From: an uncultured Enterobacterales bacterium
Lineage (GTDB): Bacteria; Pseudomonadota; Gammaproteobacteria; Enterobacterales; Enterobacteriaceae
DNA: 64,000 nucleotides
Assembly (NCBI GenBank): GCA_946478305.1
Contig: CAMLBO010000006.1
Span: 1 to 64,000 of the forward strand
Direction of reading: 5' to 3'
A model generated the notes under the pieces. It did no database searches. It saw only the letters and a program-made list of their open reading frames with translations, and was not told the origin of the DNA. The translations under genes were made by a program, and so were the position numbers. This document shows positions 9,704 to 18,939 of this stretch, in pieces; the first letter of the stretch is position 1, and each line of letters starts with the position of its first letter.

Positions 9704-9940
9704 ATGCTGCAAAAATTCCTAATGCCAGTGAAATACCCTGAACACCTACCCTTCAAGCAGTGGTATACCCAGAATAATCTCAGTTTTGAGAATGTGATCC
9801 GCTCGGGCCATCACATTTCCACTTTCAACTGGAAAAAAACCGGCTACACAGGAAATCACCTTACGGTTAGGGTAAAGACAGACGAAATACACGACTTTTT
9901 AGGTATTGCACGGCAAGGAGAGGTAACCGCGAGTGAATAA
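9704..9940 (+). CDS. hypothetical protein, first open frame of the accessory operon
   Basis: Uncharacterised 78-residue frame starting at ATG 9704, with a second ATG at 9722. I do not recognise the family. It has no signal peptide or membrane segment and is moderately rich in aromatic residues and His. The stop lies 5 bp inside the next gene. Neither ATG has a clear Shine-Dalgarno, and codon use is not distinctive, so it could be a real leader protein or a remnant of a larger gene. It is reported because it is the only frame here and the following ribosome site (AAGGAGAGG, 9915-9923) lies within it. Confidence 0.4.
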   Translation: MLQKFLMPVKYPEHLPFKQWYTQNNLSFENVIRSGHHISTFNWKKTGYTGNHLTVRVKTDEIHDFLGIARQGEVTASE

Positions 9941-10280
9941 CGGAACCGCATCTGTTAATACGGCAGGGCAAATTGGTTTGGAAGATGCAGAAGCCACCAC
10001 AGAGAAAGTGCTAAAAGATATTCAGGCGATGTTAAATGCCGAAAATATCTATACCAACGATGTCCAGCAGCAGATGTTAACCTCACATGTTAAGGCCATG
10101 GTATTACGCTCTATTACCGGCGAGCCATTACCTGAAGTTGATAAAGAGCTGTTTGACGAAATATCTGCGGAGTCAATGCGAATGGCTGAACAGGTTGTTG
10201 CCTTATTCGGGAATTTACCGATAGAGGAAGCGTATTTGCTCTCGGTGCATTTTGAAGTCGCGAAAGACAACAATTCATAA
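9933..10280 (+). CDS. stand-alone PRD-domain protein (EF_0829/AHA_3910 type)
   Basis: 115-residue protein starting at GTG 9933, with AAGGAGAGG upstream. It consists almost only of one PTS regulation domain: His52 (MLTSHVKAMVLRSITGE) and His106 (YLLSVHFEVAKDN) occupy the two phosphorylatable positions of a PRD, with ELFDEIS and MAEQVVALFGNLPIEEAY between. There is no DNA- or RNA-binding domain, so it may act by protein contact with the transporter, the enzymes or the large regulator at 17020. From memory, this short PRD family is always found beside the SFCGS/DUF4310-4312 genes, as here. Overlaps the preceding frame by 8 bp. Confidence 0.85.
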   Translation: MNNGTASVNTAGQIGLEDAEATTEKVLKDIQAMLNAENIYTNDVQQQMLTSHVKAMVLRSITGEPLPEVDKELFDEISAESMRMAEQVVALFGNLPIEEAYLLSVHFEVAKDNNS

Positions 10281-10302
10281 TTATTTATCGGGAGAAACCA
10301 TC

Positions 10303-10668
10303 ATGGGACAAATTATCGTTGTTATCGGCGACCGTTTAGGTAAAGGCCAGAAAGTAGCAGCAGGCGTTGAAGCCGCAGGTGGCAAAGCCATTGTCGTGCC
10401 TGGTGTGGCGGCTGACATGAAATTAGGCGACGTGATGAAAGCCGAAAATGCCACCTTTGGCATCTCCTTCTGCGGCAGTGGCGGTGCAGGCGCAATTACC
10501 GCGCAAACAAAATATGGATATAAAGCCAAATACGGTATGCGCTCTGTGGATGAAGGCGTGACCGCAATTAATGAAGGCTGCAATGTATTAGGTTTCGGAT
10601 TTATGGATAAAGAAGAGCTGGGTCAAAAACTGGTTGAAGCCTATATCAAGAAATTCGGCCAGCCATAA
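10303..10668 (+). CDS. SFCGS-family small glycine-rich protein (EF_0830/AHA_3911 type)
   Basis: 121-residue soluble protein of unknown function. ATG 10303 follows GGGAG at good spacing. The N-terminal half looks like an alpha/beta fold (strand IIVVIGD, helix GKGQKVAAGVEAAGG, strand KAIVVPGV). The hallmark is GISFCGSGGAGAIT with Cys57, followed by KYGYKAKYGMRS and GCNVLGFGFMDKEELGQKL. A glycine loop after a Cys at a strand end recalls PTS EIIB active sites, and also the CNTGAG loop of YhfU (DUF2620) in the E. coli yhf operon. Either link is my inference. Its stop and the next start overlap (TAATG), implying coupled synthesis with the DUF4312 protein. Confidence 0.85.
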   Translation: MGQIIVVIGDRLGKGQKVAAGVEAAGGKAIVVPGVAADMKLGDVMKAENATFGISFCGSGGAGAITAQTKYGYKAKYGMRSVDEGVTAINEGCNVLGFGFMDKEELGQKLVEAYIKKFGQP

Positions 10669-10964
10669 TGAAGCAGCAATTAACCACCACGGTGCGGGTT
10701 GAGGGAAAAGGCGAGAATAAGGCCGCCGCTTTTTCTTCCGCACTGAGTCAGGTTCAGCGAACCGTTCTAAAGTCGACGCAAAATATTTTGCTGCGTATTG
10801 AACCGCAGGACGTCAAGATAATTACGGCAGAGGAAACGGTAAAAAGGGAAAAATTCCTGTTCTTCTTTCTGGCCAGGGAGAGAAAAAGTTATTACGTGGC
10901 GTTAGACATTACCGTCAATCTGACGGCAATAAATACTGACCAGGTAGTTTTTGTCACTAAATAA
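10668..10964 (+). CDS. DUF4312-family protein (EF_0831 type)
   Basis: 98-residue protein without signal peptide, starting at ATG 10668 inside the stop codon of the SFCGS gene. The pattern is alpha/beta: TTTVRVEGKGENKAAAFSSA, then KSTQNILLRIEPQDVKII, a basic and aromatic stretch REKFLFFFLARERKSYY, and a final strand pair VALDITVNL. Function is unknown. In all neighbourhoods I recall it is next to the SFCGS and DUF4311 genes, which suggests a soluble subunit of the same transport complex. No catalytic motif is visible. Confidence 0.82.
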   Translation: MKQQLTTTVRVEGKGENKAAAFSSALSQVQRTVLKSTQNILLRIEPQDVKIITAEETVKREKFLFFFLARERKSYYVALDITVNLTAINTDQVVFVTK

Positions 10965-11038
10965 GTGCCTGCCATATAGGGGATCGTTACCTCATTAACA
11001 GGCTCAAAAATGTTAGCTATAAATGACAAGGATAACTG

Positions 11039-11815
11039 ATGTTTTTAATTATTTTATTTAAGTCGCTTATTATCGGCGGATTGGTGGGGGTTGGCGTAGG
11101 TGCAGGTGCTGCACGTATGTTCCACGCACCAAACGTGCAAGGGATGGGGGCTTTTCGTACTCTTGGGGAATTAAATTCCTGTGAAGGCGATCCGGCTTCG
11201 CATTTCTCGTTCGGTTTAGGCTTCTTCTTCAATGCCTGGGCATCTTCTGTGGCAGCAGGCTCGTTCACGCAAGATGTCGATCACCGCATCATTCCTCACT
11301 GGGCGGCAGCCGCGTTGATGTTTAAAAACCGCAACGTCGCTGAAACCCTGCATGACCCACGCAAGATGGCTATTGCCGGTGCGGTTATCGGCATGATTGT
11401 CGTCACTTTCCTCAATACCACCGCGTCTGCTGTCCCCGCATCATTGCAGGTAACGGCGGTGAAAGTGCTGGTACCTGCTGCCAACCTGTTGGTTAACACC
11501 GTGATGCCGGTGATTTTCTGGTTGGCGGCGATTGACGCAGGGCGCCGATCCGGTTTCTGGGCCACCATTTTTGGAGGGCTGGCGCAGATGATCATGGGTA
11601 ACGCAGTACCCGGTTTGGTGCTGGGTATCCTGATCGGTAAAGGCGTTGAAGAGGGCGGTTGGAACCACGTCACCCGAGTGATGATGGGGGCCATTATCGC
11701 GCTGTTCGTGCTCAGCGGGTTCTTCCGTGGCTTCGATGTGAAACTACTGCAATCCTTCATGCTGGAGGTCCCAACATGGCTAAACGGTATTCACAACTCT
11801 CTTAGCGGCAAGTAA
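11039..11815 (+). CDS. DUF4311-family integral membrane protein (EF_0832 type)
   Basis: 258-residue inner-membrane protein with about six hydrophobic segments (near residues 2-24, 55-75, 112-134, 140-163, 174-198 and 212-229). Small-residue packing motifs include GGLVGVGVGAGAARM, and a polar loop TQDVDHRIIPHW precedes a cytoplasmic stretch. NTVMPVIFWLAAIDAGRRSG and GGLAQMIMGNAVPGLVLG are typical of the family. Presumed channel or permease subunit acting with the DUF4310 protein 27 bp downstream. AAGGA lies upstream of ATG 11039. It does not look like a standard PTS EIIC by motif, but the pairing of two membrane proteins with small soluble partners is PTS-like. Confidence 0.85.
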   Translation: MFLIILFKSLIIGGLVGVGVGAGAARMFHAPNVQGMGAFRTLGELNSCEGDPASHFSFGLGFFFNAWASSVAAGSFTQDVDHRIIPHWAAAALMFKNRNVAETLHDPRKMAIAGAVIGMIVVTFLNTTASAVPASLQVTAVKVLVPAANLLVNTVMPVIFWLAAIDAGRRSGFWATIFGGLAQMIMGNAVPGLVLGILIGKGVEEGGWNHVTRVMMGAIIALFVLSGFFRGFDVKLLQSFMLEVPTWLNGIHNSLSGK

Positions 11816-11842
11816 GTTCGCGAATAAATAGAACTGGAGCTT

Positions 11843-12496
11843 ATGACAATGGAAGAACAAGCCAAAAGTAATTTCTGGTACGCCGAGTGGTCGTTCCCGA
11901 TTTTTGTTGGATTACTCTCCTCCGGGGTGTTTGCCGGAACACACATGTATTACCTGTATGGCATCGGCGCTTTTAACGAAGTGGCGTTTGTCGCGATGTT
12001 ACGTGCCGGCATGGATACCGGCGTTTACGGGGCCGTTGCGGCCTTTGGTGCCAGCTTCCTGTTTGCCCGCATTATCGAAGGTTCACTGGTCGGTATTCTC
12101 GATATCGGTGGCGCCATCCAGACCGGCATTGGCCTTGGCGTTCCGGCCATGCTGCTGGGTGCCGGGATCATCTTCCCGGTCGCGAACTTTGCGGCCTCTC
12201 TGGTTACGGGGCTGATTCTGGGACTGGCGGTGGGTTATATCATTATTCTGGCGCGTAAATTTACCATCAACCAGAGTAATTCCACCTACGGTGCAGACGT
12301 GATGATGGGGGCCGGTAACGCCTCAGGCCGCTTCCTTGGTCCATTGATTATTCTGTCTGCGATGGCGGCCTCCATTCCTATCGGTTTGGGTTCGCTGCTC
12401 GGTGCGCTGGGGTTCTATCTCTGGCAGAAACCGATCACTGGTGGTGCCATTCTGGGTGCCATGATCCTCGGTGCGATTTACCCGGTAGCCCTGTAA
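11843..12496 (+). CDS. DUF4310-family integral membrane protein (EF_0833 type)
   Basis: 217-residue inner-membrane protein, strongly hydrophobic with about six segments (roughly residues 17-38, 61-77, 84-105, 110-135, 163-190 and 197-215). Notable are the conserved-looking polar/glycine stretches FARIIEGSLVGILDIGGAIQ and STYGADVMMGAGNASGRFLG, likely substrate or partner contact regions. GGAG precedes ATG 11843. Expected to form the membrane part of an uptake system with the DUF4311 protein. Followed by an 88-bp gap with an imperfect hairpin (12524-12550) before the amidohydrolase gene. Confidence 0.85.
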   Translation: MTMEEQAKSNFWYAEWSFPIFVGLLSSGVFAGTHMYYLYGIGAFNEVAFVAMLRAGMDTGVYGAVAAFGASFLFARIIEGSLVGILDIGGAIQTGIGLGVPAMLLGAGIIFPVANFAASLVTGLILGLAVGYIIILARKFTINQSNSTYGADVMMGAGNASGRFLGPLIILSAMAASIPIGLGSLLGALGFYLWQKPITGGAILGAMILGAIYPVAL

Positions 12497-12584
12497 GAAC
12501 AGCAGTCAATAAGCAGTTAAATCAGACGTCAGGAATCTTTCCAGGCGTCTGGTGCCACTGAGAAAAGAGTACGGAGAAAAGCGT

Positions 12585-13724
12585 ATGTATGATCTGATCA
12601 TCCGCCAGGCAAAATGTCCCGACGGCAGCCTGACCGATATTGCTATCCGCGACGGTAAAATTGCCGCCACCGGCCAGCTCGACAGCGGCGCGACCGCCAC
12701 ACACATTCTTGATCTGCACGGCCAGGTTTACGCCAGCGCCGGGTGGATTGACTCCCACGTTCACTGCTACATCAAATCGCCGATTTATCATGACGAGCCC
12801 GATCTTATCGGCGTCGCGAGCGGCGTAACCACCGTGGTGGATGCTGGTAGCACGGGGGCTAATGACGTCGATGATTTTTACCAACTGACTCGTGCCGCCA
12901 AAACCAACGTCCTGGCTTTTTTGAATATCGCCCGTACCGGCATCGTGACGCAAAATGAACTGGCCGATATGAACCAGATCGACAAAGCGGCCGTGCGTGA
13001 CGCTATCACCCGTAACCCGGGTTTCATCATCGGTATTAAAGCGCGCATGAGCAGCAGCGTGGTGGGAAAAAACGGCATCAAACCGCTGGAGCGTGCCAAA
13101 GCTATCCAGCAGGAAAACAACGATCTGCCGCTGATGGTACACATCGGCAATAACCCGCCGGATCTGGACGAAATCACCGATTTGCTGACCTCGGGCGACA
13201 TCATTACCCACTGCTACAACGGTAAACCTAACCGCATTCTGTCACCGGAAGGTGTACTGCGTGACTCCGTCAAACGCGCGCTGAGTCGTGGCGTTTTGCT
13301 CGACGTCGGCCACGGCAGTGCCAGCTTCAGTTTTGAAGTGGCCCGACTGGCGATTGCGCAGGGTATCGTGCCGCACACCATCAGCTCTGATATCTATTGC
13401 CGCAACCGCGTCACCGGGCCGGTTCATAGCCTCGCGACCGTGATGTCCAAATTCTTTACCGTCGGCCTTTCGCTTGAACAGGTGATCGAATGTGTAACCT
13501 GTAACGTGGCCGACGCGCTCCGCCTGCCGTCGAAAGGACGCCTTGAGGTCGGCGCTGATGCCGACCTGACGCTGTTTGAAATCCAACATGCGCCTAAGGT
13601 GTTCGTTGACTCTGAAGGTCAGTCAGTCACCGGCGAGCAGCTCCTGGTGCCACTGGCCGCCGTGGTCGCGGGCGTAGCCCTATTAACCGATGAAGGGAAA
13701 TCAAATCATGTCTTCGAAGTCTGA
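12585..13724 (+). CDS. amidohydrolase/deacetylase-family metallohydrolase (EF_0837/AHA_3915 type)
   Basis: 379-residue cytoplasmic enzyme of the amidohydrolase superfamily, dihydroorotase-like branch. It starts at ATG 12585 with GGAG upstream; an earlier ATG at 12552 lacks a ribosome site. The binuclear metal site can be traced: His58 and His60 (WIDSHVHC), Lys152 as likely carboxylated bridge (GIKARMSSS), His186 (MVHIGNN), His209 (ITHCYNG) and Asp269 (HTISSDIYC). Such enzymes open cyclic amides or remove N-acyl groups. Given the DgaE- and DgaF-like genes that follow, deacylation or ring opening of an amino sugar acid is plausible. The next gene starts 17 bp before its stop. Confidence 0.88.
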   Translation: MYDLIIRQAKCPDGSLTDIAIRDGKIAATGQLDSGATATHILDLHGQVYASAGWIDSHVHCYIKSPIYHDEPDLIGVASGVTTVVDAGSTGANDVDDFYQLTRAAKTNVLAFLNIARTGIVTQNELADMNQIDKAAVRDAITRNPGFIIGIKARMSSSVVGKNGIKPLERAKAIQQENNDLPLMVHIGNNPPDLDEITDLLTSGDIITHCYNGKPNRILSPEGVLRDSVKRALSRGVLLDVGHGSASFSFEVARLAIAQGIVPHTISSDIYCRNRVTGPVHSLATVMSKFFTVGLSLEQVIECVTCNVADALRLPSKGRLEVGADADLTLFEIQHAPKVFVDSEGQSVTGEQLLVPLAAVVAGVALLTDEGKSNHVFEV

Positions 13725-14841
13725 GCAGTCCCTGTACGAGAAATACGGTCTTAAGCAGGTGATTAACGCCTCCGGTCGTATGACAATTCTGGGTGTATCT
13801 ACCCCGCGCCCGGAAGTGGCTGACGTAGTCAATACCGGCCTGAATCACTTCTTTGAGATGAAAGATGTGGTCAACAAAACCGGTGCATACATTGCGAAAT
13901 TGCTGGGCGTTGAGAATGCGGTGGTGGTCTCCTGTGCATCGTCCGGCATGGCGCAGTCTGTTGCTGCAGTGATCATCAAAGATAACGCGTGGTTGCTGGA
14001 AAACCTGCATGCCGCACCGCTGGAAGTGCCTCACGATATCGTGCTGCCCAAAGGCCATAACGTTAACTTTGGCGCGCCGGTAGGCACAATGGTCATGCTG
14101 GGCGGCGGGAAAGTGGTCGAAGCTGGGTATGCCAACGAATGCTCGCCTGCGCAACTCGCCGCCTGCATTACGCCACGTACGGCAGCCATCTTGTACATCA
14201 AGTCGCACCACTCCGTGCAGAAAAGCATTCTGTCTGTTGAAGAAGCCGCCGCCGTAGCGCGTGAGCACAACGTGCCGCTGATTGTGGATGCGGCAGCCGA
14301 AGAGGATCTGACCTGTTATTACGAAATGGGTGCCGATCTGGTGATTTACAGCGGTGCGAAAGCCATCGAAGGGCCGACCAGCGGTCTGGTGGTCGGTAAA
14401 CAGCAGTATGTCGAATGGGTGAAATTGCAGTCCAACGGCATTGGCCGCGCGATGAAAGTCGGCAAAGAGGGCATCCTCGGCCTGACGCAGGCGATTGAAA
14501 GCTACATTACCCTGCCGAAAACCACCGGTCAGGAGATGGTCGACAAGATGATGCCATTCATTGAAAGTCTGAATCAAATCAACGGTGTCACCGGCCGTGT
14601 GGTGTGGGACAGCGCCGGACGCGACATTGCGCGCACCGAGATCACCTTTGATGAAGCGGTACTGGGCTGGAAAACCAAGGCCATTGTGGATGCGATGAAA
14701 AACGGCGATATCGCCATTTACTTCCGCGGCTACCGTGCCAACGAAGGCAAGATTGAAGTGGATGTGCGCAGCGTAACGCCGCCGCAGCTCGCCATTGTCG
14801 CTGCGCGTTTCAAACAACTTTTCAGCGGAGAAAAAGCATGA
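13708..14841 (+). CDS. DgaE-like PLP-dependent ammonia-lyase
   Basis: 377-residue fold-type I PLP enzyme of the SelA-like branch. The best-known relative, Salmonella DgaE, converts D-glucosaminate-6-phosphate to 2-keto-3-deoxy-6-phosphogluconate plus ammonia. The start ATG 13708 has AAGGGA upstream; ATG 13690 lies deeper in the previous gene. Lys218 in LVIYSGAKAIEGPTSGLVVG is the expected Schiff-base lysine and Asp194 in LIVDAAAEED the ring-nitrogen ligand. VVVSCASSGMAQSVAAVI lines the cofactor phosphate. It overlaps the amidohydrolase gene by 17 bp and the aldolase gene by ATGA, so the three enzymes form one translational block. Confidence 0.88.
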   Translation: MSSKSEQSLYEKYGLKQVINASGRMTILGVSTPRPEVADVVNTGLNHFFEMKDVVNKTGAYIAKLLGVENAVVVSCASSGMAQSVAAVIIKDNAWLLENLHAAPLEVPHDIVLPKGHNVNFGAPVGTMVMLGGGKVVEAGYANECSPAQLAACITPRTAAILYIKSHHSVQKSILSVEEAAAVAREHNVPLIVDAAAEEDLTCYYEMGADLVIYSGAKAIEGPTSGLVVGKQQYVEWVKLQSNGIGRAMKVGKEGILGLTQAIESYITLPKTTGQEMVDKMMPFIESLNQINGVTGRVVWDSAGRDIARTEITFDEAVLGWKTKAIVDAMKNGDIAIYFRGYRANEGKIEVDVRSVTPPQLAIVAARFKQLFSGEKA

Positions 14842-15578
14842 AGCTGACCCCGAATTTCTACCGTGACCGCGTGTGCCTGAACGTACTGGCCGGTTCTAAA
14901 GACAACGCCCGCGATATTTATGATGCGGCGCAGGGGCACGTGCTGGTGGGCGTATTGTCAAAAAATTACGCCGATGTGCCGAGCGCCGTGGCGGACATGA
15001 AAGAGTACTCCGTGCTGATTGAGAACGCATTGTCTGTCGGCCTGGGTACCGGCGACCCGCGCCAGTCACTGATGGTCAGTCAGATCTCCCAACAGGTTCA
15101 GCCCCAGCATGTGAATCAGGTTTTCACCGGCGTCGGCACCAGTCGTGCGTTGCTCGGCCAGAATGACAGCGTCGTTAACGGTTTGATTTCGCCAACCGGC
15201 AAAGTGGGCTGGGTAAAAATCAACACCGGGCCGCTGAGTTCCACTGAGGCTGACGCGATTGTACCCGTTGAAACGGCCATAGCACTGCTCAAAGACATGG
15301 GCGGCAGCTCGGTCAAATATTTCCCTATGGGGGGCCTAAAAACCCGCGACGAATTTGCCGCCGTGGCTCGTGCCTGCGCAGAACATGATTTTTGGCTGGA
15401 ACCGACCGGCGGCATCGACCTGGAAAACTTCGAGCCGATTATGGAAATCGCGCTGGAAGCCGGGGTGAGCAAAATCATCCCACATATCTATAGCTCAATC
15501 ATCGACAGCGCCAGCGGGAATACCCGCCCTGACGATGTCAGAACCCTGCTGGCCAGCGTTAAAAAGCTGATCGGTTAA
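14838..15578 (+). CDS. DgaF-like KDGP aldolase (EF_0839 type)
   Basis: 246-residue class I aldolase family protein. DgaF cleaves 2-keto-3-deoxy-6-phosphogluconate to pyruvate and glyceraldehyde-3-phosphate. Lys160 in GGSSVKYFPMGGLKTRDEF is the predicted Schiff-base lysine. FWLEPTGGIDLENF and GVSKIIPHIYSSIIDSASG complete the barrel, with a phosphate-binding look. Start ATG 14838 overlaps the ammonia-lyase stop (ATGA). It is the last gene of the tightly packed block; 125 bp and a hairpin separate it from the lactonase gene. The reaction is inferred from family and neighbours. Confidence 0.88.
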   Translation: MKLTPNFYRDRVCLNVLAGSKDNARDIYDAAQGHVLVGVLSKNYADVPSAVADMKEYSVLIENALSVGLGTGDPRQSLMVSQISQQVQPQHVNQVFTGVGTSRALLGQNDSVVNGLISPTGKVGWVKINTGPLSSTEADAIVPVETAIALLKDMGGSSVKYFPMGGLKTRDEFAAVARACAEHDFWLEPTGGIDLENFEPIMEIALEAGVSKIIPHIYSSIIDSASGNTRPDDVRTLLASVKKLIG

Positions 15579-15631
15579 GGTTCACTGGCCACTTTCCTTT
15601 CGCGCTGCGAGCTGTCTGCGCTGTTAAACAC

Positions 15632-15660
15632 CCTGCGTCCGTCCTTTGGGGCGGTGCAGG
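15632..15660 (+). other. strong stem-loop between aldolase and lactonase genes
   Basis: CCTGC (15632-15636) pairs with GCAGG (15656-15660), and CCGTCC (15639-15644) with GGGCGG (15649-15654, one G-T pair). There is a small bulge and a TTTG loop. No U-tract follows, so it is more likely an mRNA processing or partial-attenuation element than a full terminator. Confidence 0.4.
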
Positions 15661-15703
15661 ACTCCCGCGTTTGTCTGGCAATCCCTTTAAATTGAGGAAA
15701 TGT

Positions 15704-16894
15704 ATGAGAAACTGGCTACTGATTTCAGGTTTAACATCCGCGATGCTGGCGATCTCCGCCACACCGCTCTACGCAGCAGAAAAGGCCATGACGAAAACGA
15801 CTCATTACGCCTACGTGGGTACCTATAACCCCAATGGCGAAGGCGTTTACCGCTTTAAATTTGACAATAAAACCGGTGCACTGACCGAACGCGTGCTGGT
15901 CAGCCAGTTGCCGAATCAGGCCCAGATGGTCGCCAGCCATGACGGCAAAACGCTGTTTATCGGCAATGAAATTGATAATTATAACGGCGGGAAAAACGGC
16001 GCGATTGCGGCCTATAAAATCAACCCACAGGATGGAAGCCTGACGCTGATTAATCAGGTGGATTCGCAGGGCGGAGGCCCGGTTTATCTGTCGCTGACCC
16101 CAAAAGGCGATCACCTGCTGGTGGCCAACTACATCAGTGGCGTGGTGGCGGTATTCCCGGTAGATACCAGTGGCAAACTGGGCGAAGCCAGTGATCATCA
16201 ACAAGATTCGGGTCCGGCTGGGGCAGCAAAGCCCGCCGCAGCGGTTGAAGGCAGTTTTGCTGCCAGTGACCATAATGGCCCGCACGCCCATATGATTGCC
16301 ACCGATCCGAGCGGCAAGTTTGCCTTCTCCACCGACCTCGGCCTGGATCGCATTTATCAGTGGAAACTGGACGACGGAAAACTGATACCTAACGAGCCAG
16401 CGTTCATTAGCGCCTCTTCACCGGGTGCCGGTCCGCGCCATTTCGTGTTCCATCCGAACGGTAAGGTGGTCTTCCTGATCAACGAAGAGGCTTCAACGCT
16501 GACCAGCTATCGCTTTGACAGTGCTAAAGGCACGCTGACACAGCTGCATGTGTTGTCGTCGTTACCGGCTAACTTCAAAGGCACTAACTTTGCCGCAGGC
16601 ATCGTATTGAGCAAAGACGGACGTCATTTGTACGTGGCTAACCGTCTGCACAACAGCATTGCGCAAATCAACGTGACCGGCGAAGGCGCCATGACCTTTG
16701 GTGAAGAGGTTTGGACCCGTGGTGACTACCCGCGGACCATAAACTTCTCGCCGGATGGAAAATACATTTTCGCAATGAATCAACGAAGCGATAACATCAC
16801 TAAATTCAATGTTTCCGCCAGCAGCGGTAAACTGACCTTTGCTGATGAATACACTGCGGTGGGCAGCCCGTCGCAAATGGTGATTGTTCCCTGA
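15704..16894 (+). CDS. secreted lactonase-family beta-propeller protein (Pgl/YbhE-like)
   Basis: 396-residue protein of the seven-bladed 6-phosphogluconolactonase/cycloisomerase family. Unlike cytoplasmic Pgl it has a signal peptide (MRNWLLISGLTSAMLAISAT, cut near LYA/AEK), so it acts in the periplasm. Family repeats are clear: TTHYAYVGTYNPNGEGVYRF, HDGKTLFIGNE, DHNGPHAHMIATDPSGKFAF, DLGLDRIYQW, GAGPRHFVFHPNGKVVFLINE, DGRHLYVANRLHNSIAQI and RGDYPRTINFSPDGKYIFAMNQ. GAGG lies upstream of ATG 15704. Being downstream of amino-sugar-acid enzymes, it may hydrolyse an aldonolactone before uptake. This is inference; such propellers also have non-lactonase members. Confidence 0.85.
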   Translation: MRNWLLISGLTSAMLAISATPLYAAEKAMTKTTHYAYVGTYNPNGEGVYRFKFDNKTGALTERVLVSQLPNQAQMVASHDGKTLFIGNEIDNYNGGKNGAIAAYKINPQDGSLTLINQVDSQGGGPVYLSLTPKGDHLLVANYISGVVAVFPVDTSGKLGEASDHQQDSGPAGAAKPAAAVEGSFAASDHNGPHAHMIATDPSGKFAFSTDLGLDRIYQWKLDDGKLIPNEPAFISASSPGAGPRHFVFHPNGKVVFLINEEASTLTSYRFDSAKGTLTQLHVLSSLPANFKGTNFAAGIVLSKDGRHLYVANRLHNSIAQINVTGEGAMTFGEEVWTRGDYPRTINFSPDGKYIFAMNQRSDNITKFNVSASSGKLTFADEYTAVGSPSQMVIVP

Positions 16895-16932
16895 TAGTCA
16901 GGCGTTGAAGTGACTCAGTATGAATAAACGAT

Positions 16933-16966
16933 GCGGGGTGACGTTTCTTGTCATCCCGCCTTGTTA
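16933..16966 (+). terminator. terminator after the lactonase gene
   Basis: GCGGGGTGAC (16933-16942) pairs with GTCATCCCGC (16950-16959) with one G-T pair and loop GTTTCTT, followed by CTTGTTATTT. It separates the catabolic genes from the regulator gene, which therefore probably has its own promoter in 16967-17019. Confidence 0.75.
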
Positions 16967-17019
16967 TTTAACGCGCTCTGAAAATTGATGTTTTACGGTA
17001 ACCACTGACTGGAAGGATT

Positions 17020-18939
17020 ATGGTGAGATTTCCCTATCAACGACTGGCCCATCTGTTTGATGCCCTGCAGGCAGAAACGCTGCCGCAGGATGAGCTGGCA
17101 AAGCGCCTGGATGTCTCCACGCGCACGGTGCGAGCCGATATTACTGCACTCAATGAGATCATAGAGCAGTACGGTGCCTCGTTCGTGCACAACCGTGGCA
17201 GCGGATACCAACTGAAAATAGATGACGCTGCTCTGTTCTCTTCACTGCAACAGGCTAATAACCGCCGTATCAGTCCGACGCCACGCACTGCCCCTGAACG
17301 TGTCAACTACCTGCTAATACGCTTTTTGACCTCAGCTTTTTCACTCAAGCTGGAAGATCTGGCCGATGAATGGTTCGTCAGCCGGGGAACCCTGCAAAAT
17401 GATATGGCTGAGGTCAGGGAGCATCTGGCGCGCTATCACCTTAGCATTGAAACCAAGCCGCGTTACGGCATGAAGTTGTTCGGCGCTGAACTGGCTATCC
17501 GCGCCTGCCTGACCGATTTGCTGTTCGAGCTTGATGGCGAAGATCAGACCAATCCGTTACTGAAAACGGAAAGTTTGGAGCGCGAAGCACTGGCACCGCT
17601 GACCGATTTTATGCACCAGTTGCTGGCCCAGTCGTCAATCCAGCTGACAGATGAAGGCGAGCAGTATCTGATCCTCTATTGCGCGGTGGCCATCAAACGT
17701 ATTACCGGCGGCTACCCGCTGACCGACTTCGATGCAGAAGAGGGCGATCCGGCCGTGCGACAGGTGTCTGTGCGTCTGGCAGCGGAGCTGAAAGCGCTGG
17801 TGGGTAAAGAGATCCCGGCTGCGGAAGAGGCTTATTTGCGGGTCAATATTGCGGCGCGGCGGGTACAGAATATTTTACCAACTGACATCAATGCCGACGA
17901 CGATGAATCTCTGGTGGATTACATTCTCTCTTATATCAATGCGCACTATAACTATGATTTACAAGGTGATAAGCAGCTGCGGGCTGATCTGTTAACCCAT
18001 ATTAAGACCATGATCACCCGGGTTAAATATCAGATTAATATCCCTAATCCCCTGCTCGGTAACATCAAGCAGCACTATCCGATGGCCTACGACGTAACCC
18101 TGGCAGCGGTTTCCAGCTGGGGGAAATATACACCGTATTCACTCAGCGAAAACGAAATCGGGTTTTTGGTGTTGCACATCGGCGTGGGGCTGGAGCGGCA
18201 TTACAACATCGGTTACCAGCGCCATCCACAGGTGATGCTGGTGTGCGATACCGGCAACTCGACGATCCGCATGATTCAGGCGCAGATCAGCCGCAAATAC
18301 CCGCAGCTGGTGGTGACGCAGGTGGTCTCTTTGCGCGACTACGAGAAGCTTGAACACGTCGACGAAGATTTTATTATCTCCAATGCGCGTATCACCGAAA
18401 AAAATAAGCCGGTGGTGGTGCTGTCGCCTTTCCCGACCGAGTATCAGATGGAGCAGTTGGGGAAATTGGTGTTAGTGGACCGCACGCGCCCTTACATGCT
18501 GGAGAAGTTCTTCGACGAAAAACATTTTATGATCATCGACGAACCGATGACCCAGGCGCAACTGTTCCATAAGGTCTGCACCCAACTGGAAGAGGAGGGC
18601 TACGTCGACGCCGAGTTTTACCCCTCAGTAGTGGAGCGTGAAGAGATTGTCTCGACCATGCTTGGCGAAGGTATTGCACTGCCGCATTCGCTGGGTTTGC
18701 TGGCGAAGAAAACTGTGGTGATCACACTGCTCTCCCCGCAGGGTATCGCGTGGGGGGATGGGGAAACGGCGCATGTGATTTTCCTGCTGGCGATCAGCAA
18801 AGCGGATTACGAAGAGGCGATGGCGATTTACGACCTGTTTGTCACATTTGTGCGGGAACGGTCGATGAGCCGTTTGCTGAGCAGTTCTAATTTTGAAAGT
18901 TTTAAGGCGATAGCGAAAGATTGCCTTAGCAGGATTTGA
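17020..18939 (+). CDS. PTS-responsive transcription regulator (HTH-PRD-PRD-EIIB-EIIA)
   Basis: 639-residue regulator of the BglG/MtlR/LicR group in its DNA-binding form. Domains in order: N-terminal HTH (about 5-60, LPQDELAKRLDVSTRTVRAD), a second HTH-like region (about 92-165), PRD1 (about 185-290), PRD2 (about 295-395), a Gat-type EIIB domain with Cys409 (VMLVCDTGNSTIRM) and an EIIA domain with His556 (GEGIALPHSLGL). PRD2 keeps both histidines (His327, His386). In PRD1 the aligned positions are Tyr220 and Asn276, so PRD1 looks unable to be phosphorylated. GGAAGGA precedes ATG 17020. It probably activates the upstream operon in response to PTS phosphorylation. It has no RNA-binding CAT domain. 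Confidence 0.9.
   Translation: MVRFPYQRLAHLFDALQAETLPQDELAKRLDVSTRTVRADITALNEIIEQYGASFVHNRGSGYQLKIDDAALFSSLQQANNRRISPTPRTAPERVNYLLIRFLTSAFSLKLEDLADEWFVSRGTLQNDMAEVREHLARYHLSIETKPRYGMKLFGAELAIRACLTDLLFELDGEDQTNPLLKTESLEREALAPLTDFMHQLLAQSSIQLTDEGEQYLILYCAVAIKRITGGYPLTDFDAEEGDPAVRQVSVRLAAELKALVGKEIPAAEEAYLRVNIAARRVQNILPTDINADDDESLVDYILSYINAHYNYDLQGDKQLRADLLTHIKTMITRVKYQINIPNPLLGNIKQHYPMAYDVTLAAVSSWGKYTPYSLSENEIGFLVLHIGVGLERHYNIGYQRHPQVMLVCDTGNSTIRMIQAQISRKYPQLVVTQVVSLRDYEKLEHVDEDFIISNARITEKNKPVVVLSPFPTEYQMEQLGKLVLVDRTRPYMLEKFFDEKHFMIIDEPMTQAQLFHKVCTQLEEEGYVDAEFYPSVVEREEIVSTMLGEGIALPHSLGLLAKKTVVITLLSPQGIAWGDGETAHVIFLLAISKADYEEAMAIYDLFVTFVRERSMSRLLSSSNFESFKAIAKDCLSRI

Follow-up and report, generated by a model that had tools for sequence, protein, structure and literature searches.

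An operon that probably imports and catabolises an N-acetylated sugar acid via a membrane transporter unlike known ones

Gene content and upstream region of the island

The window analyzed here is a stretch of 64,000 nucleotides (contig CAMLBO010000006.1, assembly GCA_946478305.1) that is part of the 4.87-Mb genome of an uncultured Enterobacterales bacterium. It contains an intact run of ten plus-strand genes at 9933-18939 (Table 1), which code, in this order, for a small PRD protein, SFCGS, DUF4312, DUF4311 and DUF4310 proteins, an amidohydrolase, a pyridoxal phosphate (PLP) lyase, a 2-keto-3-deoxy-6-phosphogluconate (KDGP) aldolase, a lactonase and an HTH-Mga-PRD-PRD-EIIA regulator. Our analysis suggests that this operon probably imports and catabolises an N-acetylated sugar acid (a chitin or mucin sugar in oxidised form) via a membrane transporter unlike known ones. 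The gene order is that described in an earlier reading of this DNA (the original prediction), and the overlaps which it listed are all present in the sequence: TAATG at the SFCGS/DUF4312 junction (10666-10670), 17 bp shared by the amidohydrolase and lyase genes (13708-13724) and ATGA between lyase and aldolase (14838-14841). By DUF4311, the closest named relatives are Ewingella and Hafnia psychrotolerans (97-98% identity). Based on the open reading frames (ORFs), we take the flanks of the run to be pmbA-cybC-yjgA on one side and npr-rapZ-ptsN on the other.

All core models (TIGR03582, 03577, 03578, 03580, 03579, 03583 and 03581) were passed at their curated cut-offs. The same cluster, with no difference, is already catalogued in NCBIfam as EF_0829-EF_0839/AHA_3910-AHA_3917 (TIGR03577-TIGR03583), under the label 'hypoth_equivalog' and without a function. 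A literature search on the cluster, including DUF4310, DUF4311, DUF4312 and SFCGS, found no paper that assigns one. The earlier description of the island as uncharacterised thus holds for function but not for naming. One paper counts EF0839 as a possible aldolase for amino sugars in E. faecalis (PMC7701990). An Rfam search gave no match.

Table 1. Features of the island, with positions in the window and the basis of each assignment
Feature	Positions	Strand	Basis
TTTCCACTTTCAACTGGAAA conserved palindrome, probable operator of the island's PRD regulator	9816..9835	+	TTTCCA-N8-TGGAAA conservation, 109/109 loci
Probable promoter: T(A/C)CACA -35-like 9845-9850, 17-bp spacer, TAnnnT -10 9868-9873	9845..9873	+	column conservation
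Small stand-alone PRD protein, GTG start	9933..10280	+	TIGR03582 E 2.6e-41
SFCGS protein, distantly RpiB/LacAB-like, invariant Cys in CGSG loop	10303..10668	+	PF14272/TIGR03577
DUF4312 protein	10668..10964	+	PF14189/TIGR03578
DUF4311 membrane protein	11039..11815	+	PF14188 8.5e-120, TIGR03580
DUF4310 membrane protein	11843..12496	+	PF14187 1e-103, TIGR03579
EF_0837-type amidohydrolase, predicted N-deacylase, intact binuclear metal site	12585..13724	+	TIGR03583 3e-166; PDB 8wzy, 2ics, 2ogj relatives
DgaE-like PLP ammonia-lyase	13708..14841	+	TIGR01437 6.5e-175
DgaF-type KDGP aldolase	14838..15578	+	PF07071 1.5e-106; NF047796; PDB 3m0z
Secreted lactonase, 7-bladed propeller, optional member	15704..16894	+	PF10282 4.2e-99
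Terminator-like stem between lactonase and regulator	16933..16959	+	11-pair stem then T-rich tail
HTH-Mga-PRD-PRD-EIIA(2) regulator, probable activator	17020..18939	+	Pfam domains

The original prediction had counted an ORF at 9704-9940 (78 aa) as the first gene. This ORF has no family match, and its frame is open over the full length in this genome only; in relatives the frame breaks up and a short DNA block inside it persists. Because it lacks a family, is not kept as a frame and overlies a conserved palindrome and promoter, we conclude that it is not a gene. The palindrome was found upstream of the first gene with 0-2 mismatches in all loci that have the PRD gene, Enterococcus being left out, compared to 2-6 mismatches, mostly 4-5, in shuffled copies. 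In its exact form it occurs once in its own genome by pattern search.

Downstream of the palindrome, T(A/C)CACA and TAnnnT stand at a fixed distance. Over 105 distinct sites, columns of the -10 box are conserved at T98% A96% T96% and those of the -35-like box at T100% C95% A86% C79% A83%, making the block a probable promoter with a weak -35 box. We rejected a sigma-54 promoter as a reading of this element, since conservation does not extend to the GC of the -12 box and the regulator does not belong to the sigma-54 activators. The centre of the palindrome lies approximately 54 bp upstream of the inferred transcription start, a position usual for an activator, and the island's own regulator is predicted to bind the palindrome and activate the promoter. 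The E. faecalis locus has no palindrome, and its regulator is only distantly similar to that of the island (75 bits). The terminator-like stem sets the catabolic genes apart from the regulator gene.

Distribution, gene linkage and relation to dga operons

We compared 80 named loci together with loci of Klebsiella, Bartonella, Enterococcus and further genera, judging gene order where the contig was long enough. The same ordered set was present in all complete loci examined, i.e., in Enterobacterales, Aliivibrio, the betaproteobacterium Xenophilus, Bartonella plasmids and, with insertions, Enterococcus. Exceptions were a partly overlapped Aeromonas caviae record, which carries part of the cluster, and a few truncated contigs. 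The lactonase gene is optional: of about 85 loci, 35 have it.

Among 248 genomes of the order, 30 had DUF4311 above cut-off and 31 the KDGP aldolase, and all 30 were shared (Fisher p 7.5e-38, without correction for descent). These 30 genomes represent 13 genera and 5 families, and the distance between the two genes ranges from 3647 to 4009 bp. The original prediction had named, as an outcome that would count against it, a membrane pair occurring without the enzymes in most genomes; the result favors the prediction, as DUF4311 was never seen without the aldolase (30/30 genomes). The 31st aldolase genome (G413; locus L142, C3:30000-44000) carries a decaying island, in which DUF4312, DUF4311 and DUF4310 are lost, the PRD protein, amidohydrolase, aldolase and regulator are broken and the lyase is still long. 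Weak DUF4311 matches in two genomes were discarded as spurious, their translations being DjlA-like by reading; a weak match in the E. coli control is probably spurious as well, and this control has neither a DUF4311 above cut-off nor a match to the KDGP aldolase. A phylum-wide sample yielded no further lineages with DUF4311, and no island was found in viral contigs.

Several hosts showed variants of the island. On two Bartonella plasmids the whole island is followed by an HPr-EI fusion (L004:8047-10062 and L005:15405-17420). In L005 the island lies near plasmid replication genes, and therefore it can be mobile. The Klebsiella island (L002) is on a 550-kb linear record labelled as a plasmid; this record carries the chromosomal genes mpl, fbp and nrdD, so the label appears doubtful. 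In E. faecalis, an insertion (L003:11620-14355) codes for a lactose/cellobiose-type IIC, a 99-aa protein and a MupG-like phosphoglycosidase, and a PfkB protein resembling 2-keto-3-deoxygluconate (KDG) kinase is located downstream (L003:17325-18335). The aldolase frame of this locus (L003:16570-17310) is split into unannotated ORFs of 163 and 84 aa, reflecting either real damage or a sequencing error. One locus (L112) has four tandem copies of a family of approximately 300 aa beside the island, upstream of the PRD gene, and the related L111 has one; by inspection, the L112 proteins have a TPM/YgcG-like Gly-rich C-terminus.

A second intact aldolase copy was identified in two genomes (G445 and G584), in both cases within a dga operon with a mannose-type phosphotransferase system (PTS) and no amidohydrolase. 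One of these operons (L140), read gene by gene, consists of a sigma-54/PRD activator, EIIA-man, PTSIIB_sorb, EII-Sor, EIID-AGA, DgaE and DgaF; ORF sizes indicate an identical arrangement in the other (L141), where DgaE and the aldolase were confirmed. Within the sample, the lyase-aldolase pair thus accompanies either a mannose-type PTS, with the amidohydrolase missing, or the SFCGS/DUF4312/DUF4311/DUF4310 set, with the amidohydrolase present. As the original prediction states, DgaABCD is absent from the island; it was seen solely as part of separate operon copies, L140 among them. Compared to the Salmonella-type dga operon for D-glucosaminate (DgaABCD, DgaE and DgaF), the island shares a DgaE-like lyase and a DgaF-type aldolase, but has the set in place of the mannose-type PTS, adds the amidohydrolase and a PRD regulator, and lacks a sigma-54 activator. 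Because the mannose-type PTS stands there in dga operons, the set appears to fill the transporter slot. By analogy, this exchange suggests a role of the set in transport and is the strongest support for it; it also suggests that the substrate is D-glucosaminate with a nitrogen substituent that the amidohydrolase removes.

Enzymes, PTS control and the candidate transporter

The amidohydrolase scored 553 bits on TIGR03583 (cog3964/EF_0837 amidohydrolases; cut-off 432). Its metal ligands His58, His60, Lys152, His186, His209 and Asp269 are invariant in 84/84 homologs, so the binuclear site is intact, as had been claimed. Arg275 is likewise invariant (84/84), and Atu3266 (2ogj) has no equivalent of it by alignment. 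Atu3266 reportedly hydrolyses acetyl-(R)-mandelate and, weakly, N-acetyl-D-serine (work of Ornelas et al. in 2013). Because C1-C3 of N-acetyl-D-glucosaminate share the pattern of these substrates, the amidohydrolase may be a deacetylase of this compound.

Both lysines named in the original prediction were found: Lys160 in the aldolase and the PLP lysine Lys218 in the lyase (counted from the start at 13708), the latter present in 84/84 homologs. In the D-glucosaminate-6-phosphate ammonia-lyase DGL, the phosphate of the substrate lies near Arg301, Arg332 and Arg346, and His163 is the proton donor (Phillips and colleagues, PMC9529869). Equivalents of His163, the PLP Lys and the three arginines are invariant in 84/84 island lyases, supporting the earlier view that the lyase is suited to an amino sugar acid phosphate; it keeps the active site for such a substrate, and the activity is predicted. 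The DgaE-like lyase is 39-42% identical to the copies in dga operons. The aldolase reached 385.3 bits on the curated DgaF model NF047796 (cut-off 300).

PTS control of the operon is a well-supported prediction from sequence, because PRD and IIA histidines are invariant and Bartonella operons carry the HPr-EI fusion. Histidines H52 and H106 of the small PRD protein are conserved in 83/83 sequences, and PRD2 H327 and H386 and the IIA active-site His556 of the regulator in 82/82; by inspection, PRD1 of the regulator lacks canonical histidines. The HPr-EI fusion (671 aa) is the last operon gene on the two Bartonella plasmids and would make PTS phosphate available to the operon. This evidence bears on control, not on phosphorylation of the substrate by the SFCGS/DUF4312/DUF4311/DUF4310 set.

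The original prediction was that this set replaces the PTS as a transporter, possibly a phosphorylating one. In favor of this, it takes the place of DgaABCD and is tied to the enzymes; however, homology to PTS components or transporters was not found. No Pfam PTS domain was matched among 26-30 members of each set protein, and HHalign of the set against IIB, IIC and IID of the L140 and L141 operons gave no match. DUF4310 and DUF4311 matched no PTS IIC/IID profile, only their own Pfam families, plus weak matches such as DUF2232. Structure models built from 28-30 similar sequences were poor (DUF4311, pLDDT 62 and pTM 0.56; DUF4310, pLDDT 60 and pTM 0.52), and a Foldseek search of PDB with them, which found no match below E 1, is uninformative about the fold.

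SFCGS, judged from its sequence, is likely a distant RpiB-like protein. Twenty of 26 members matched LacAB_rpiB weakly (best E 0.0012, below the curated cut-off), 8/26 matched DUF2620/YhfU, also weakly, and a thin HHalign comparison with RpiB aligned 76 columns around the CGSG loop at E 0.0014. SFCGS shares with RpiB/LacAB isomerases the order of elements around this Cys-Gly-Ser-Gly loop, whereas the pathway proposed below needs no isomerase step. These matches, the invariant Cys in a catalytic-type loop and the lack of a transporter fold, as far as poor models can tell, would fit a membrane-bound enzyme or sensor complex, with SFCGS as an RpiB-like isomerase and uptake by an unlinked transporter. 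We consider this highly improbable, given that the set sits exactly where DgaABCD does, includes two polytopic membrane proteins and is accompanied by no other transporter in the operon. As for the transporter reading, we tentatively suggest, while holding it to be somewhat unlikely, that DUF4311 and DUF4310 work with SFCGS (RpiB fold, invariant Cys) and DUF4312 as a phosphorylating permease that is not related to known PTS families and serves a phosphorylative N-acetyl-glucosaminate route in Enterobacterales, Aeromonas, Bartonella and Enterococcus.

Proposed route, alternatives and implications

We give about even chances to the following: the island carries out PTS-controlled uptake and catabolism of an N-acylated 2-amino-2-deoxy-aldonate, most likely N-acetyl-D-glucosaminate, in five steps. 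The secreted lactonase, where present, would open a sugar lactone outside the cytoplasm. The acid would then be taken up by DUF4311/DUF4310 with SFCGS and DUF4312, and phosphorylated at C6 by the set or by a host kinase. The EF_0837-type amidohydrolase would remove the acetyl group, the DgaE-like lyase would convert the phosphorylated amino acid to KDGP by ammonia elimination, and the aldolase, of the DgaF family, would cleave KDGP. The predicted route thus runs from N-acetyl-D-glucosaminate (6-phosphate) via D-glucosaminate-6-phosphate and KDGP to pyruvate and glyceraldehyde 3-phosphate. The regulator, whose PRD and IIA domains carry phosphorylation sites, would act from the observed palindrome to activate the promoter.

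Several observations weigh against this proposal. SFCGS resembles RpiB-type isomerases and not an EIIB, and DUF4310, DUF4311 and DUF4312 have no detectable PTS or transporter homology. The lyase scored 364.9 bits, below the curated DgaE cut-off (NF047797, 600 bits). Genes for lytic polysaccharide monooxygenases (LPMOs) show no significant enrichment in genomes with the island (11/30 vs. 53/218, p=0.18), their co-occurrence being clustered in one family, and are absent from the window's own genome; therefore, the substrate need not derive from the cell's own chitin oxidation. Finally, the IIC, phosphoglycosidase and kinase-like genes of E. faecalis suggest an unphosphorylated acid in that organism. 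Speculatively, these additional genes could serve to bring in a disaccharide such as GlcNAc-GlcNAc1A and to release the unphosphorylated acid from it.

The lack of PTS homology and the KDG-kinase-like gene in E. faecalis would also suit a non-phosphorylating DUF4310/DUF4311 transporter within the same pathway, with the unphosphorylated acid deacetylated and a KdgK-type kinase encoded elsewhere making KDGP. Such an order has a precedent in the ong pathway of Pseudoalteromonas, a non-phosphorylated route for N-acetyl-D-glucosaminate (GlcNAc1A) released from chitin by LPMOs (PMC9537276, PMC12017989), in which GlcNAc1A is deacetylated and deaminated before phosphorylation (PMC9537276). However, the three phosphate-holding arginines of DGL are invariant (84/84), gammaproteobacterial and Bartonella operons lack the kinase gene and the Bartonella operons carry HPr-EI. 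We regard this version as unlikely.

A similar pathway might start from another N-acyl 2-amino-aldonate (a galacto or manno epimer, or one with a different acyl group) or from an aldonolactam whose ring the amidohydrolase would open. In favor of this, no substrate is assigned here to the amidohydrolase family. In 27 divergent loci searched for substrate clues, the flanking genes looked at appeared unrelated and showed no chitin signature; LPMO co-occurrence gives no chitin signal either, and a family of small genomes (f207) has the island and no LPMO. A different substrate is nevertheless rather unlikely in our view, since all DGL-like residues are kept and the aldolase passes the DgaF model, fitting the gluco series.

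In its chemistry (deacetylation, deamination and KDGP), the proposed N-acetyl-D-glucosaminate route resembles that of the ong cluster of Pseudoalteromonas prydzensis (PMC9537276, PMC12017989); the proteins differ. OngB is of the mononuclear subtype V and D-aminoacylase-like, whereas the island amidohydrolase has a binuclear His-His-Lys-His-His-Asp site. The ong system also differs in having the D-amino acid deaminase-like OngC, an SSS-family transporter and late phosphorylation by KdgK. The parallel drawn earlier with the E. coli yhf operon (YhfS-YhfZ) stands in part: the small PRD protein resembles YhfY, and SFCGS weakly resembles YhfU (DUF2620), but YhfT has no detectable similarity to DUF4310 or DUF4311 and the enzymes differ.

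The island is probably a variant among hexosaminate catabolic operons, built around a probable transporter unlike known ones. A specific operator is now proposed for an MtlR-like PRD regulator. In a study of Aeromonas, OngB and OngC had distant matches or none, and the enzymes were left open (PMC11653859). If the proposal is true, the pathway would explain use of oxidised amino sugars by bacteria lacking OngB and OngC, the gap reported in that study, and the catalogued AHA_ cluster members suggest that Aeromonas hydrophila has this route. In addition, two membrane and two soluble DUF-type families would then define a class of transporters found in common bacteria of gut, plants and soil.

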